A stretch of DNA of 25,837 nt from Gammaproteobacteria bacterium (GTDB taxonomy: Bacteria > Pseudomonadota > Gammaproteobacteria > Acidiferrobacterales > Acidiferrobacteraceae), in NCBI GenBank assembly GCA_028064935.1, contig JAPTWT010000065.1, positions 1 to 25,837 on the forward strand. Direction: 5' to 3'. The notes under the pieces were generated by a model that was not told the DNA's origin, did no database searches, and worked only from the letters and a program-made list of their open reading frames with translations. Positions 20,380 to 25,837 of this stretch are shown here, piece after piece (position 1 is the first letter of the stretch; every line of letters begins with the position of its first letter). A program made the translations under genes and the position numbers.

Positions 20380-21069
20380 TCAAGGAGCGGGGGATGACAG
20401 GCGCCGGCGGACCTCGTTTAGGAGCGTCCCGTGGCCGACGCTCGCGGCCCGTTCCCAGGCATCGAACAAGAGCGTCTCTTCCCGGAACTCGTGCTTGTTG
20501 AGGCTCGCGGCAAGGAGGCCAAGCCACGTGTCCAGGTCCTTGCAGGACTCCTCGGGGGCGGCGCACACCTCCTGGATGGCATCCAGCTGGACCAGGATGT
20601 CGTCGTGCTCGCGGCGCATGAGCGCCGTCGGCTCCTCGGCATCGCGGGCGGCAAGGGGTGCGAGAAGATCGTTTTCGATGAGGATATGGGCGCGCAGGGC
20701 GTGATCGAAGGCCGTGACCTCCGAGACCGCCTCACGCCAGTGCCCGCCATTGACCAGGGACAGCGACCGGACGAGACGGGCATCCATGTCGTCATGATCG
20801 CGCCGCAGGGTGTCGGTGAGCGCGAGCGCCTCGCCCGGGCCGCGGATGTGCAGGGTGACCAGGTAACCCTGGCCATCAGTGGCGGCGTGCCAGACGAGCG
20901 TATGGCGCATGTGATTCTGAAGCTGGGCCATGAGCAGGGTCGGGTCCTCGGGGCTCCAGATGCGCAGGGATTCCCCGGGACCCATCTCGCGCAGGACGGA
21001 GTAGGCATAGGTGGATGCCGGTACGCCTTGCGGCGTAAGACGCAGATCAAGGACGTAGCAGCACGACAT
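20380..21069 (-). CDS. DUF2249 (TusA-like)–hemerythrin HHE fusion protein
   Basis: This 229-aa protein has two parts. Residues about 4-80 fit DUF2249, a TusA-like fold: YVLDLRLTPQGVPAS, then MGPGESLRIWSPEDPTLLM and LVWHAATDGQGYLVTLHIRG. The TusA-type CPxP cysteine motif is absent. The remainder is a four-helix hemerythrin-like HHE domain with candidate di-iron ligands in TLRRDHDDMD, HALRAHILIEND, RREHDDIL and NKHEFREETLLF. Such proteins bind O2 or NO, or sense redox state, in the cytoplasm. ATG 21069 has a GAGG ribosome-binding site 8 bp after the preceding stop; a TTG at 21081 is less likely. It is probably co-transcribed with the flavoprotein gene under the FNR-type site at 22308. Confidence 0.82.
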   Translation of the reverse strand: MSCCYVLDLRLTPQGVPASTYAYSVLREMGPGESLRIWSPEDPTLLMAQLQNHMRHTLVWHAATDGQGYLVTLHIRGPGEALALTDTLRRDHDDMDARLVRSLSLVNGGHWREAVSEVTAFDHALRAHILIENDLLAPLAARDAEEPTALMRREHDDILVQLDAIQEVCAAPEESCKDLDTWLGLLAASLNKHEFREETLLFDAWERAASVGHGTLLNEVRRRLSSPAP

Positions 21070-21077
21070 AGGGCGCC

Positions 21078-22274
21078 TCAAGCGATAAGGGAGACGGCCG
21101 GGCGTGGCGCCTGGGCCGGCGCGACGCCCGTCAGGAGATACTCGAGGAGGTCGCGGACCGGACGGATCTCGCGGCCAAAAGGCAAGGGCGCACCCCCCCG
21201 GAAGAACAGTCCCTGCTCGACATTGCCCTTGGCGGCCGCCGCCAGCTGGGTCTCGATGCAGAATTGCCCGGCCTCGGGATTACCGTCCTTGAAGCCACAA
21301 TGGCTCAGACACTCAAGCCGGCTCGCGCACCCTCCGCAGCGGCCCGTGGCGCGGGCCTTCAAGAGGGTCTCGCGCGCCAGATAGCGCTTGAGCCAGGGGG
21401 TAAGTACCGCGCGCGCCGGCAGCCCGGCGGCGCTCATGAACGTAACGATATCCTCGCCGCGCGCCTCGGCCAACACCCGCTTGAAGTTCGGGTGCGCATC
21501 GCACTCCTCGGTCACCGCGAACGCCGTACCCAGTTGCACGCCGGAGGCACCACGATCGAGCAGATCGCGAATGGCGCGGAACGAGCCGATGCCCCCCGCC
21601 GGAATGAGCGGGATCCGTTCGGCGGCCACACCGAGCCTCTTGAACAGCGCCAAGGCCTCCTTCAGGACATGGCGGAAATCGAAGCGGGGGGAGTCGACAT
21701 CGGCCAATCGTGGGGCGCCAAGATGACCACCGGCGTGGCCGGGGTGCTCTATGATGACCGCATCGGGGAGCCGGCCCTTACGCATCCACTTGCGCAACAG
21801 GACCTCGATCCCACGCTCCTCGGAGAGGATGGGGATCAGGGCGACATCGTGCCCCTGAGTCAGCTCGGGGAGATCGAGCGGCAATCCGGCCCCCATCACG
21901 ATGGCGTTGGCCCCGCTGAGACAGGCCTGGCGGACGAAATCGGCATAATGGTTCAGTGCGCGCATGACATTGACCGCGATGAACGCCGCGGGCCCGGCGA
22001 TGGCGCGCGCCGCCTTGACCTCGCGATCCAGGGCCTCGAGATTGCCGTCGAGCATCTTGTGCGTATCCCGGCAGCGGCGCAGGCGGCTCATGATATCCGG
22101 ATGCAGATGCCGCAGATCAACGCTTGCGATAGTGCCGACCGCGCCCTCGCGCGCCACTGCGGAGGCGAGCTTATGGGCGGAGATGGCCACCCCCATACCC
22201 CCCTGAAAGATGGGCAACAGGTGACGGCCCCTCAGATTCAGTTTCGGTAGGCACGATGCGATTACGGATGTCAT
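21078..22274 (-). CDS. Nitronate monooxygenase-like FMN flavoprotein with C-terminal Cys cluster
   Basis: This 398-aa TIM-barrel FMN protein belongs to the nitronate monooxygenase/2-nitropropane dioxygenase family. Signatures are PIFQGGMGVAIS (21-32), IEHPGHAGGHLGAP (175-188), the phosphate-binding IPAGGIGSFRAI (224-235) and GVQLGTAF (245-252). It also carries a C-terminal module with Cys313, Cys316, Cys322, Cys326 and Cys339 (GRCGGCASRLECLSHCG), plausible metal or Fe-S ligands. Family members oxidise nitronates or act as NAD(P)H-flavin oxidoreductases; the substrate here is unknown. ATG 22274 matches relatives and has no clear Shine-Dalgarno. An FNR-type box lies about 41 bp upstream. The next gene encodes the hemerythrin fusion. 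Confidence 0.88.
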   Translation of the reverse strand: MTSVIASCLPKLNLRGRHLLPIFQGGMGVAISAHKLASAVAREGAVGTIASVDLRHLHPDIMSRLRRCRDTHKMLDGNLEALDREVKAARAIAGPAAFIAVNVMRALNHYADFVRQACLSGANAIVMGAGLPLDLPELTQGHDVALIPILSEERGIEVLLRKWMRKGRLPDAVIIEHPGHAGGHLGAPRLADVDSPRFDFRHVLKEALALFKRLGVAAERIPLIPAGGIGSFRAIRDLLDRGASGVQLGTAFAVTEECDAHPNFKRVLAEARGEDIVTFMSAAGLPARAVLTPWLKRYLARETLLKARATGRCGGCASRLECLSHCGFKDGNPEAGQFCIETQLAAAAKGNVEQGLFFRGGAPLPFGREIRPVRDLLEYLLTGVAPAQAPRPAVSLIA

Positions 22275-22304
22275 GATGTGAGCTTAGTCCGATGACCCGC
22301 CCAT

Positions 22305-22652
22305 TCATTGATGCGGATCAAGGGCCAATCCGTGGGGTTGGACCGCCGCCACCATGTAGCGCACCGCCGCGCGCACCTCGCTATCGGTCAGGGATTCGTC
22401 GCCGCCCTTGGGGGGCATGAAGCTGTACCCGTAATAGCCGTGGATGGCGTGCCCGTACAGGACCTTCATGCCCTTCGCCAAGTGCTTGCGCCAGGCACCG
22501 CGGTTGCCGAACTGGGGCGCGCCGGCGATACCGCGGGCATGACAGGTGTGGCATGTCTGATCGAAGACCTGCCGGCCGGTGAGGACCCGGGCGGACACGC
22601 CGGTCGTGAACACCGCCAGGATCAGGACCGAAAGGGGCATGGGGCGGGGCAT
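22305..22652 (-). CDS. Small class I cytochrome c (c5-like), exported
   Basis: This 115-aa protein has an N-terminal signal peptide (PLSVLILAVFTTGVSA, cleavage near residue 21) and one haem-binding CHTCH motif (Cys34, Cys37, His38). The likely axial Met is Met79 in YSFMPPKGG, followed by the terminal helix LTDSEVRAAVRYMV. It is a periplasmic one-haem electron carrier similar to cytochrome c5 or c552. It begins 13 bp after the hemN stop and is likely co-transcribed with it, linking haem synthesis and a haem protein. Its 3' end lies next to the FNR-type box serving the next gene. Confidence 0.92.
   Translation of the reverse strand: MPRPMPLSVLILAVFTTGVSARVLTGRQVFDQTCHTCHARGIAGAPQFGNRGAWRKHLAKGMKVLYGHAIHGYYGYSFMPPKGGDESLTDSEVRAAVRYMVAAVQPHGLALDPHQ
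22308..22321. promoter_or_regulatory. FNR/ANR-type box TTGATGCGGATCAA
   Basis: This is an exact match to TTGAT-N4-ATCAA. It overlaps the last codons of the cytochrome c gene and is centred 40.5 bp upstream of the A of the flavoprotein ATG (22274). That is the class II activator position if transcription starts at or next to the start codon. Seen in sequence; regulator binding is inferred. Confidence 0.6.
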
Positions 22653-22665
22653 GGGTATCTCTCTC

Positions 22666-24039
22666 CTAGACGACGCGGGAAAACCGCCGGCGATCGGCGA
22701 TGAGCAGGTAACGGTCGAAGACCGCGCACACCGCGCGCACCAGCATCTGGCCGCGCGGGGTCACGGCAATCTTGCGGTCATCCACCTCCACCAGGCCGTC
22801 ATGGATAAAGGGCTCGAGGCGCGCCAGTTCGGAGGTGAAATAGGTGGCGAAGCGCAGACCGTGACGGGCCTCGACGGCCGCCACATCGCACTCCATGTGG
22901 CACAGGAGATCGTTGATCACCTCGCGGCGCAGCTCGTCATCGGCGCTCAATTCGAACCCGCGGCGCACGGGCAGCGTCCCTTGATCGACGAGGGCCTCAT
23001 ATTCCTTCAAGTCCCAGGCATTCTGGCTGTAGATCGCGCCTATGCGGCTGACTGCCGAGGCCCCCACCCCCAGGACATCGAGGTGCCCACGGGTCGAATA
23101 TCCCTGAAAATTGCGCGCCAGGGTGCGGTCGCGCTGGGCCTGCGCCAGCTCGTCGCCAGCCTTGGCGAAGTGGTCGAGTCCGATATAGACGTAACCGGCG
23201 CCGGCCAATGCCTCGGCAGTGCCGCTCAAGATGGCGATCTTGGTCAGGCCGTCGGGGATCTCGGCGGCATCGATGCGCCGCTGCGGTTTGAAGCGTTCCG
23301 GGAGATGCGCATAGTTGAAGAGCGACACGCGATCCGGGGCGATCTCAAGAAGACGATCGACTGTACGCGCGAAACTGTCGCGGGTCTGGCGCGGCAGGCC
23401 ATAGATGAGGTCGACGCTCAGGGAGCGAAACCCCAGGGTGCGCGCGGTCTGCGCGACATGGCGCACCAGCGCGAAGGACTGCTCGCGGTTGATGGCGCGT
23501 TGCACGGCGGGGTCGAAATCCTGGACCCCAAGGCTCAGGCGGTTGAATCCGATGGAGCGTAGGAGCGCGAGCGTGGCATCCGAGGCATGGCGCGGATCGA
23601 TCTCGATCGAATACTCGCCGCCATCATCGGCGCGCAGCGCGAAACGCTCGGCTATCGCGCACATGAGGGCGCGCATCTCGTCATGACTCAGAAAGGTGGG
23701 CGTCCCGCCGCCCCAGTGGAGCTGATCCAGGGGTGGGCGCGCACCGAGCCATGGCGACAACAAGGCGAGCTCCCGGGCGACGCGCGTCACATAAGGCTCG
23801 GCGCGGTCGTGGTGCTTCGTTATCGTCTTATTGCAGGCGCAGTAATAGCATACGGACTCGCAGAACGGGACGTGCACATAGAGCGACCACGGGCGATCCG
23901 CCGGTCGCGCCGCGAGCGTGCGGCCCAGGTCATCGGGGCCGAACTGGCCATGGAATTGAGTCGCTGGGGGGTACGAGGTGTAACGCGGCGCCGATTCCCC
24001 ATAGCGGGCGACGAGTGAGGCATCGAAAGAATCATTCAT
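22666..24039 (-). CDS. hemN: Oxygen-independent coproporphyrinogen III dehydrogenase
   Basis: HemN is a radical SAM enzyme that decarboxylates coproporphyrinogen III to protoporphyrinogen IX without O2. The 457-aa product equals E. coli HemN in length. It has the CxxxCxxCxC motif CESVCYYCAC (Cys60, Cys64, Cys67, Cys69), the HemN N-terminal ARYGESAPRYTSYPPATQFH (11-30), the HWGGGTPTFLS motif, EIDPRHA and the GLPRQT segment. The C-terminal HemN domain includes LDHFAKAGDELAQAQ, the region that separates true HemN from HemW. An FNR-type palindrome upstream, centred 55.5 bp before the ATG, supports anaerobic induction. The cytochrome c gene follows by 13 bp. Confidence 0.95.
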   Translation of the reverse strand: MNDSFDASLVARYGESAPRYTSYPPATQFHGQFGPDDLGRTLAARPADRPWSLYVHVPFCESVCYYCACNKTITKHHDRAEPYVTRVARELALLSPWLGARPPLDQLHWGGGTPTFLSHDEMRALMCAIAERFALRADDGGEYSIEIDPRHASDATLALLRSIGFNRLSLGVQDFDPAVQRAINREQSFALVRHVAQTARTLGFRSLSVDLIYGLPRQTRDSFARTVDRLLEIAPDRVSLFNYAHLPERFKPQRRIDAAEIPDGLTKIAILSGTAEALAGAGYVYIGLDHFAKAGDELAQAQRDRTLARNFQGYSTRGHLDVLGVGASAVSRIGAIYSQNAWDLKEYEALVDQGTLPVRRGFELSADDELRREVINDLLCHMECDVAAVEARHGLRFATYFTSELARLEPFIHDGLVEVDDRKIAVTPRGQMLVRAVCAVFDRYLLIADRRRFSRVV

Positions 24040-24087
24040 AAGCTAACCCTAAAACGCGACGGTAACGCCCGGGTCCCTCGGTGCGCC

Positions 24088-24101
24088 TTGATCAATATCA
24101 A
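24088..24101. promoter_or_regulatory. FNR/ANR-type box TTGATCAATATCAA upstream of hemN
   Basis: This is an exact TTGAT-N4-ATCAA match in the 72-bp gap between the ubiD stop and the hemN start. With class II placement at -41.5, transcription would start near 24053 and leave a 14-nt leader. No strong -10 hexamer is seen, so dependence on an activator is plausible. Anaerobic hemN genes are well-known FNR/ANR targets. Confidence 0.75.
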
Positions 24102-24111
24102 CCCGAACCGA

Positions 24112-25575
24112 TCAGATCCCCAGGGCCGCACAGATATCGGCCACCGCCGCCTGAGTCCGGGGATCAGGCTGGATCGGTCGACCCGGAGGACGCGTGACCT
24201 CGGGGGGCCGCTTCAATGTGGCATCCAGGCCCATCTTACCGCCCAGACCGGCCTCGGGGCTCGCGAAATCCAGGTAATCGATGGGCGTATTCGTCAAGAT
24301 GACCGCATCGCGAGCGGGATCGGCACGGGTCACCAGCGCCCATACGACCTCAGACCAGTCGCGAATGTTGATATCATCGTCGGTCACGATCACGAATTTG
24401 GTGTAGGTGAACTGCCTAAGGTAGGACCATACACCGAACATGACGCGGCGCGCGTGGCCAGGATAGCGTTTGCGAATGCTCACCACGGCGACCCGGTAGG
24501 AACAGGCCTCGGGGGGCAGGTAAAAGTCGGTGATCTCGGGGAATTGTTGCTGCAAGAGCGGCACGAAGACCTCGTTCAAGGCCCCGGCCAGCACCGAGGG
24601 CTCGTCGTGCGGTGAGCGCCCCATATAGGTCGTTTGATAGAGGGGGGCGTGACGATGCGTCACGCGGGTCACAGTCATGACCGGGAAATGGTCCTGGGCG
24701 TTGTAATAGCCGGTATGATCGCCGAACGGCCCCTCCAGGGCGGTATCGCCTGGGGCGATCACCCCCTCCAGGACGATCTCAGCGCGCGCCGGGACCAGCA
24801 AGCCGTTGCCGGCGCGCGTAAGTTCGGTGCGCGCCCCCCGCAAAAGACCGGCAAACTGATACTCCGACAGGGTGTCCGGAATGGGTGCGACCGCGGCTAT
24901 GGTGAGGGCCGGATCCGCGCCTATGGCCACCGCCACCGGAAACGGTTCATCCGGGTGGGCCTCGCGAAACCGCGCATAATCACCGGCCCCGCCACGATGT
25001 GCGAGCCAACGCATGATGAGGCGATTGCGGCCGATCAGCTGCTGGCGATAAACCGCGACGTTGTGCCGCTCATCGCGCGTCGGGCGGGTGATGACCAGAC
25101 CGAAGGTGAGCAGCCGCCCGGCATCCCCAGGCCAGCAGTGCGAGATCGGCAGGGCCTCGAGATCGACGGCCTCACCCTCCTGAACGCACTCGTGGACCGG
25201 CGCGCCGTCTTCCACGATGCGCGAGCGCGCCGCCCACAGGCGACCGATGATGGGGAGATGACGAATGGCCTCGCCCGTGCCACGTGGCCAGCGCGGCTCC
25301 TTGATCCGTCCAAGCAACTCCCCGAGCGCGCGCAAGGCGGTGCTATCGTCCAAGTCCATGGCCTGCAAGACCCGCTCGCGGGTCCCAAACAGGTTGCCGA
25401 CCACGGGCATGGTCCCGCCATCGACATGCTCGAACAGCAATGCGGGTCCCTGGGCCATGATCGCGCGCCGGCAGATCTCGGTAATCTCCAGGTGGGCGCT
25501 GACCGGCGCGGCCACGCGCGCGAGGAGGTTTCGGCGCTCGAGGTGCGCGAGGAATTGGCGCATGTCGGTAAACAT
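24112..25575 (-). CDS. ubiD: 4-hydroxy-3-polyprenylbenzoate decarboxylase UbiD
   Basis: UbiD uses prenylated FMN to decarboxylate 4-hydroxy-3-polyprenylbenzoate in ubiquinone synthesis. From ATG 25575 the product has 487 aa, close to E. coli UbiD (497). It begins MFTDMRQFLAHLERRNLLARV, which aligns with the family N-terminus; an upstream in-frame TTG at 25626 sits 5 bp from an FNR-type box and is unlikely. Signatures are VYRQQLIGRNRLIMRWLAHR with the prFMN-binding Asn/Arg, AEIVLEGVI with the catalytic Glu, EGPFGDHTGYY, and the C-terminal DDDINIRDWSEVVWAL. A ubiX prenyltransferase gene must exist elsewhere. The FNR-type box at 25632 hints at oxygen-responsive expression. Confidence 0.94.
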   Translation of the reverse strand: MFTDMRQFLAHLERRNLLARVAAPVSAHLEITEICRRAIMAQGPALLFEHVDGGTMPVVGNLFGTRERVLQAMDLDDSTALRALGELLGRIKEPRWPRGTGEAIRHLPIIGRLWAARSRIVEDGAPVHECVQEGEAVDLEALPISHCWPGDAGRLLTFGLVITRPTRDERHNVAVYRQQLIGRNRLIMRWLAHRGGAGDYARFREAHPDEPFPVAVAIGADPALTIAAVAPIPDTLSEYQFAGLLRGARTELTRAGNGLLVPARAEIVLEGVIAPGDTALEGPFGDHTGYYNAQDHFPVMTVTRVTHRHAPLYQTTYMGRSPHDEPSVLAGALNEVFVPLLQQQFPEITDFYLPPEACSYRVAVVSIRKRYPGHARRVMFGVWSYLRQFTYTKFVIVTDDDINIRDWSEVVWALVTRADPARDAVILTNTPIDYLDFASPEAGLGGKMGLDATLKRPPEVTRPPGRPIQPDPRTQAAVADICAALGI

Positions 25576-25631
25576 TCTGGCGGCATCGTAGACCGGGGTC
25601 CGCGCCGGCCCTTTGATCCATCGCAAAACAT

Positions 25632-25645
25632 TTGACGCACATCAA
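25632..25645. promoter_or_regulatory. FNR-like box TTGACGCACATCAA between ubiD and right-edge gene
   Basis: This matches nine of ten positions of TTGAT-N4-ATCAA. Its centre is 41.5 bp from the A of ATG 25680 on the plus strand, with AACAAT (four of six to TATAAT) at the -10 position, which fits a class II, leaderless promoter for the right-edge gene. On the minus strand it lies 57 bp or more upstream of ubiD ATG 25575. Confidence 0.5.
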
Positions 25646-25679
25646 CTCACGGGGCCCGCAAACCGCGAACAATGACCGC

Positions 25680-25837
25680 ATGGCCTTTCTGTCTGATATC
25701 GTCTCGCAAACCGCGCCGCGCGCCCTGGATTTCGGCGCCAGGGTCGTGCCGGCGCCCGCCATCGCCTTAGGCGGCGCGCTCATGGCCAATGCCCTGTTGG
25801 TGTCGGACCACACCCTGGAGGCCCTGTCGGGCACGCG
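25680..25837 (+). CDS. Unrecognised gene, N-terminal part, cut by window end
   Basis: An open frame starts at ATG 25680 and runs off the window after 52 complete codons. It begins MAFLSDIVSQTAPRALDFGA, followed by a moderately hydrophobic Ala/Pro/Leu-rich stretch (ALGGALMANALLV) that could be a membrane or signal-like segment. No family is recognised. There is no Shine-Dalgarno, but an FNR-like box with matching -10 spacing points to transcription starting at this ATG, which supports it as a real gene. It is divergent from ubiD. Confidence 0.5.
   Translation, partial: MAFLSDIVSQTAPRALDFGARVVPAPAIALGGALMANALLVSDHTLEALSGT

Follow-up and report, generated by a model that had tools for sequence, protein, structure and literature searches.

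The oxygen-independent ubiquinone pathway of Escherichia coli (ubiUV, ubiT) is reported to be activated by Fnr (mBio 2023, PMC10470549), and the ANR and DNR regulons of Pseudomonas and Burkholderia are described with TTGAT-N4-ATCAA boxes and with hemN among their targets (PMC1274295, PMC6588701), Burkholderia hemN being given as a carrier of DNR sites (PMC1274295). FNR control of ubiT and of hemN is already known. Two described proteins are concerned with unsaturated fatty acids: Helicobacter pylori FabX, which does the job of FabA (PMC8626469), and Neisseria gonorrhoeae UfaA (NGO1024), an NMO-family protein needed for the anaerobic synthesis of these acids (PMC11300592, PMC4549310). The electron acceptor of UfaA is called unknown in PMC11300592, and the gonococcal protein is described as induced anaerobically (PMC3032703). 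Here we consider a block at the right-hand end of a 25,837-nucleotide stretch of gammaproteobacterial DNA (Acidiferrobacteraceae; contig JAPTWT010000065.1 of assembly GCA_028064935.1), the whole of which is referred to below as the window. In this block, boxes of the FNR type stand before ubiT and ubiD, before hemN and before a FabX-like gene. Our reading, with a probability of about 0.78, is that the block belongs to an island under FNR/ANR control, conserved in Acidiferrobacter and its family, that serves biosynthesis without oxygen. Among the open-licence papers listed by literature searches (20 of 98 matches in the broader one), none joins FabX or UfaA with FNR or with hemerythrin, and the one paper that contains both FabX and Fnr deals with the production of antibody Fab fragments.

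At the ubiT locus, as in E. coli, the promoters diverge and their sites are separate; one of the E. coli sites reads TTGAT-N4-GGCAG (PMC10470549). The present locus differs in that ubiT is divergent from ubiD and not from ubiUV, has a site that is almost perfectly palindromic and may be leaderless. The box sequence and the hemN target are shared with the ANR/DNR regulons cited above, whereas here the boxes lie in one island together with ubiT/ubiD and a FabX-type gene. The flavoprotein encoded by that gene and H. pylori FabX as described in PMC8626469 have in common a flavin mononucleotide (FMN) TIM barrel, a catalytic histidine, four [4Fe-4S] cysteines and an occurrence where FabA is missing; the two are about 33% identical and, unlike its H. 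pylori counterpart, the gene studied here stands behind an FNR box and beside that of a di-iron protein. UfaA is likened to the flavoprotein by description and not by sequence; what sets the present case apart is the DUF2249-hemerythrin neighbour, for which a protein search returned only 24 homologues.

The features of the block, from right to left, are given below; the −10 elements are predictions.

25680..25837, plus strand: ubiT, 5′ part, truncated at the edge of the window; encodes an accessory factor with an SCP2 domain for O2-independent ubiquinone synthesis.
25668..25673, plus strand: predicted −10 of ubiT, AACAAT; predicted transcription start on the ATG at 25680.
25632..25645, plus strand: FNR box TTGACGCACATCAA, at which class II activation of ubiT is predicted.
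25613..25626, minus strand (that of ubiD): degenerate FNR-like box TTGCGATGGATCAA, overlooked in the first-pass annotation.
25585..25590, minus strand: predicted −10 of ubiD, TACGAT (TAnnnT), at degenerate box+36.
24112..25626, minus strand: ubiD open reading frame (ORF), 3-octaprenyl-4-hydroxybenzoate carboxy-lyase (PF01977, PF20695, PF20696); likely start ATG 25575.
24088..24101, minus strand: FNR box TTGATATTGATCAA before hemN, its centre about 55 bp ahead of the ATG.
24059..24064, minus strand: tentative −10 of hemN, TACCGT, placed by eye.
22666..24039, minus strand: hemN, oxygen-independent coproporphyrinogen III oxidase (TIGR00538, 539.3 bits, cut-off 324.95).
22305..22652, minus strand: small c-type cytochrome gene between hemN and fabX (PF13442, PF00034).
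22308..22321, minus strand: FNR box TTGATCCGCATCAA before fabX, overlapping the end of the cytochrome gene.
22281..22286, minus strand: predicted −10 of fabX, TAAGCT; predicted transcription start on or next to the ATG at 22274.
21078..22274, minus strand: fabX, probable FabX/UfaA-type FMN and [4Fe-4S] acyl-(acyl carrier protein) (acyl-ACP) dehydrogenase/isomerase; database name nitronate monooxygenase.
20380..21081, minus strand: DUF2249-hemerythrin (RIC-like) di-iron protein gene, directly downstream of fabX (PF01814 over its cut-off, PF10006 just below).

The three FNR boxes had been placed by the first-pass annotation, a reading of the letters alone. They are indeed there, two as exact TTGAT-N4-ATCAA (22308-22321 and 24088-24101) and one with a single mismatch, a TTGAC half-site (25632-25645), and, as it also said, the rest of the window holds no other site within one mismatch. 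Of the positions that it called intergenic or gene-end, that of the box at 22308 is not intergenic, since this box extends over the final codons of the cytochrome c gene (stop codon at 22305-22307). The placement of the boxes before a flavoprotein-hemerythrin pair, before hemN-cytochrome c and before ubiD and the right-edge gene holds, with the flavoprotein now re-read as FabX/UfaA-type and the right-edge gene as ubiT. The annotation's further point, that two exact boxes are more than chance would lead one to expect, is borne out by counts in the nearest genome (G001; 3.4 Mb in one contig, sharing 88% of sampled 31-mers with the window), in which whole-genome box counts, the regulator and the UbiT model match were read. 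G001 has five exact boxes, two of them those of the window, against one for the reversed-pattern control; for the degenerate form TTGAY-N4-RTCAA the figures are 20 and one. From these counts, two exact boxes in 25.8 kb have P ~7e-4, and three degenerate ones within 3.3 kb have P ~1e-6. The ratio of TTGAY-N4-RTCAA to its reversed controls is 226 to 6 in 14 genomes of the genus and 1265 to 114 in all 41 genomes of the comparison set (G001 and 40 relatives, the 14 genus members included).

Conservation in relatives, which had been named as a check, was examined by scanning for TTGAY-N4-RTCAA from about −400 to +150 around each estimated start. The ubiT box is present at 29 of 30 loci spread over five families of the order, G020 alone being without it, and the fabX box at 24 of 25, that is at all 24 testable loci, since the fabX locus of G020 comes without upstream sequence. 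At the 17 hemN loci of the family a box is always found, 61-62 bp ahead of the ATG. The numbers of loci expected by chance, from each genome's own box count, are 0.18 (ubiT), 0.13 (fabX) and 0.07 (hemN). The loci for hemN came from 30 of the 41 genomes and those for FNR from 30 of the 40 genomes with a match; the UbiT and HemN loci of G016 and the UbiT loci of four further genomes were left out, and the FNR locus of G008 is clipped. Within the family the information content per column is 1.82-1.91 bits in the box arms and 0.33-0.83 in the flanks, although the rows were anchored on the pattern, so that the conservation of the arms is partly built in; no family locus with sequence was dropped. 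A second, degenerate box (TTGAYN4SGCAR on the plus strand, a pattern chosen after alignment) lies 18-21 bp before the ubiT box at 17/17 family loci. The regulator's own gene is boxed at 17 of 18 family loci, the 18th being clipped. Searches at 4 of the 13 fabA loci (G025, G027, G038, G041) and at four desaturase loci, none from the window's family (G023, G029, G036, G039), found no box.

In class II activation the activator is centred near −41.5, and this is the geometry that the −10 elements predict for fabX, ubiT and ubiD in the family, hemN being less clear. A −10-like hexamer of ubiT lies at box+36 in 13/17 family loci and within 1 bp of this in the other four, and a TAnnnT before fabX at box+35 in 16/18 family loci and at +36 in all six others. 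On the ubiD strand a TAnnnT occurs at degenerate box+36 in 17/17 family loci (z 4.2 over 46 offsets, uncorrected). The scan took in hemN boxes within −90 to −40 only. Since the predicted starts of ubiT and fabX fall on or next to their ATG codons, both messages may be leaderless. The arrangement at fnr is of another kind: a −10-like hexamer at box+22 in 16 of 17 loci would place the box over the −35, from which autorepression is predicted.

A candidate regulator for such boxes was the other check that had been named, and G001 encodes one with the FNR cysteines and recognition residues. The Pfam Crp HTH domain is matched by one protein of this genome and a cNMP-binding domain by three. A recognition helix of the form E..SR reads TTGAT, and the cluster cysteines of FNR are taken here to be C20, C23, C29 and C122 in E. 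coli numbering. The FNR/ANR-type protein has the four cysteines and ETVSR at 30/30 loci, G001 included; its best solved relative is FNR (7e-53), in alignment with which the same cysteines are seen, and strong matches (E 2e-43 or better) occur in 39/41 genomes. Its gene lies at 238-239 kb in G001, some 20 kb from the window's boxes (259-262 kb), and is itself boxed. The scheme that we propose is then as follows. With falling oxygen FNR would bind near −41.5 and would activate ubiT and ubiD for ubiquinone, hemN for haem and, for unsaturated fatty acids, fabX together with the adjoining DUF2249-hemerythrin gene; at fnr itself, where it would cover the −35, it would act as a repressor. A few kilobases from fnr, genes for a hemerythrin, a DUF2249 protein and a membrane protein are found (L020 11313-14457; G001 243-246 kb), and the fnr box is the sole match to the strict pattern in that locus.

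The boxes, and above all that of fabX and hemerythrin, might instead be read by a DNR-type regulator, with nitric oxide (NO) or nitrite as the signal and not oxygen. Such a protein, with ETFSR, without the FNR cysteine set and with Pseudomonas aeruginosa DNR as its best solved relative (1e-38), is present as well as the FNR/ANR-type one in 14/14 genus members, and its E..SR recognition residues are found at 17/17 family loci. Boxes in G001 adjoin dnr-GcvH-hemerythrin genes and precede a quinol NO-reductase-like gene, and G024, G029, G033 and G040, four genomes from another family, have fabX at a distance of about 3-13 kb from a DNR homologue. Against this, the ubiT boxes are kept in G025, G030 and G038, where the best match to this DNR reaches only E 1e-11 to 1e-14, so that FNR is favoured there, and E. 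coli ubiT is given in PMC10470549 as a shown Fnr target; this argument bears on ubiT and not on the fabX box. We regard control by DNR as unlikely.

Two regions of G001 can be described in this connection. The first (L024 8285-10550; 723-726 kb) contains a DNR-type gene; boxes there lie close to a GcvH-like/hemerythrin pair and to another hemerythrin gene, and this is possibly a separate NO regulon. In the second (L046 1713-4031; 2997 kb) the box TTGACCGCGGTCAA stands about 90 bp upstream of the quinol NO-reductase-like gene (PF22085, PF00115).

The right-edge gene is ubiT, of oxygen-independent ubiquinone synthesis, by the evidence of a family model: its orthologue in G001 (L021:6569-7051) scores 71.9 bits with NF047962, above the cut-off of 46.9, and UbiT matches occur in 35/41 genomes. 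UbiV (NF047965) is encoded 5-6 kb from ubiT in G001 and UbiU (NF047963) was recognised in a relative. A genome of another family (G019, L206) has the order fnr, hemN, ubiD, box, ubiT, the last meeting the UbiT model, followed by two ORFs whose first residues resemble those of UbiV and UbiU. Given the identity of ubiT and the probable FabX/UfaA type of the flavoprotein, the island probably serves to turn on the synthesis of haem, ubiquinone and unsaturated fatty acids by routes that need no oxygen.

The flavoprotein is most likely an unsaturated-fatty-acid enzyme of the FabX/UfaA type, which would act on acyl-ACP. An alternative is that it is an ordinary nitronate monooxygenase or a FabK-type enoyl reductase, and the pair with hemerythrin a nitrosative or oxidative stress module. 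Its named homologues are called nitronate monooxygenase, NAD(P)H-dependent flavin oxidoreductase or 2-nitropropane dioxygenase, it matches Pfam NMO, and the hemerythrin is weakly YtfE-like; its match to the FabK model, at 78.5 bits, is far under the cut-off of 453. By sequence search the nearest solved relatives are named 2-nitropropane dioxygenase, and the fold search titles these same entries H. pylori FabX. Five FabX structures take ranks 1-5 among the 50 listed in that search, ahead of every FabK and nitronate monooxygenase; FabK structures, too, stand higher in the ranking than the nitronate monooxygenases. The cluster cysteines C316, C322, C326 and C339 and the catalytic H184 are present in all 26 aligned proteins, and among 120 homologues listed the cysteines are found in 120 and the histidine in 118; PMC8626469 describes the cluster as absent from all other characterised members of the family. 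With a threshold of 59% identity for FabX-like proteins (NMO-family matches of 33-40% are not counted), 25 of the 41 genomes have the FabX-like gene and 13 have FabA above its cut-off; none has both, and three (G028, G035, G039) have neither. The raw Fisher value for this exclusion, 3e-8, takes no account of kinship, and we place no reliance on it. All 41 genomes have a match to the desaturase family PF00487. On the cluster cysteines, the fold ranking and the exclusion of FabA, the identity as nitronate monooxygenase was set aside, and we regard the stress-module alternative as improbable. That the boxes are functionless relics or chance occurrences, as might be said since the motif matches alone are directly seen, is very improbable given their presence at 29/30, 24/24 and 17/17 loci and the near-fixed −10 spacing.

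A second NMO-family paralogue (L107 1129-2418, L103 1468-2481) is found elsewhere, also in G039, for which neither FabA nor a FabX-like gene was found; it could be another unsaturated-fatty-acid enzyme.

A number of points weigh against an FNR-controlled island of the kind proposed. Outside the family the hemN box lies within 100 bp of the start at 3/13 loci, or 5/13 over the whole range scanned, the fnr box is present at 1/12 loci, and the degenerate ubiD-side box at 0/12; the distance from the fnr box to the start is 210-274 bp in G015, G017 and G018. The hexamer scan covered about 42-46 offsets per gene with z values uncorrected; it did not resolve the ubiT −10 in the 12 loci outside the family and, for hemN, where a TAnnnT can be seen by eye at +36/37 in many rows, it ranked another offset first. 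The regulator was identified in G001 and not in the window's own genome, and scores 222.2 bits with NF008365 (NCBIfam Fnr), marginally under the cut-off of 228; it is therefore named FNR/ANR-type. As for the enzyme, its identity is based on the roughly one-third identity to H. pylori FabX (~33%), and the cluster loop is poorly modelled (predicted local distance difference test, pLDDT, <50 at 312-338, compared with 85.6 overall). When the FabX/FabA exclusion is placed on the HemN tree (30 genomes) it comes to about three independent contrasts, nearly all opposite, a number too small for significance (p 0.25). For H. pylori FabX, moreover, O2 is the only acceptor found according to PMC8626469, which sits oddly with low-oxygen control. 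Binding, the direction of regulation, the oxygen signal, the acyl-ACP reaction and the hemerythrin's role are deduced from sequence.

The question of the acceptor leads to the hemerythrin. Its residues H96, H132, E136, H159, H197 and E201 are conserved in 24/24 rows (the window and 23 of the 24 homologues, the fragment P0144 being excluded from the alignment). The first-pass annotation had proposed an oxygen- or NO-responsive group linking haem, quinone and hemerythrin functions. The link between haem and quinone stands and is sharpened by ubiT; hemerythrin-based sensing or protection as the organising theme was set aside because the box accompanies fabX (24/24) more widely than the hemerythrin does, which lies directly downstream of fabX at 17/25 loci. 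We suggest, very tentatively and as something that is on balance improbable, that the hemerythrin could be the missing redox partner of FabX/UfaA enzymes, either accepting electrons from reduced FMN or guarding and repairing the [4Fe-4S] cluster, and could thereby allow unsaturated fatty acids to be made without free O2. If this were true, lipid desaturation would pass, under direct FNR control, from an O2-dependent desaturase to FabX/UfaA, alongside haem and ubiquinone synthesis. In other families fabX adjoins the genes of a two-subunit pyruvate:ferredoxin oxidoreductase (L199 and, by likeness, L201 and L204), and a hemerythrin gene also does so (L202); this enzyme is of an oxygen-sensitive type, and the neighbourhood fits use at low oxygen.

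Further boxes in G001 stand before nrdD (anaerobic ribonucleotide reductase) and nrdA. Together with the island they suggest that one oxygen sensor could coordinate the replacement of those steps that need oxygen in the synthesis of haem, ubiquinone, deoxynucleotides and unsaturated fatty acids. Such switches would let the cell keep making haem, ubiquinone and probably unsaturated fats once air is gone. Proteins labelled 'nitronate monooxygenase' can be re-read as probable FabX/UfaA enzymes, and the fabX-hemerythrin neighbours are a natural gene pair for direct testing of the anaerobic electron acceptor of FabX/UfaA.

The origin of the block on a plasmid was also considered, and the plasmid collection gave no near match. 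Identical boxes TTGATTGGCGTCAA occur at 1324061, 1324179 and 3035170 of G001, within or beside a repeated ORF, and are probably not regulatory; some other degenerate boxes of this genome fall inside gene calls, so that not all 20 can be taken as regulatory. Finally, at 3243 kb in G001 (L023 7432-11160) an exact FNR box lies upstream of a gene for a ribonucleotide reductase alpha subunit that has an intein N-terminal splicing match.

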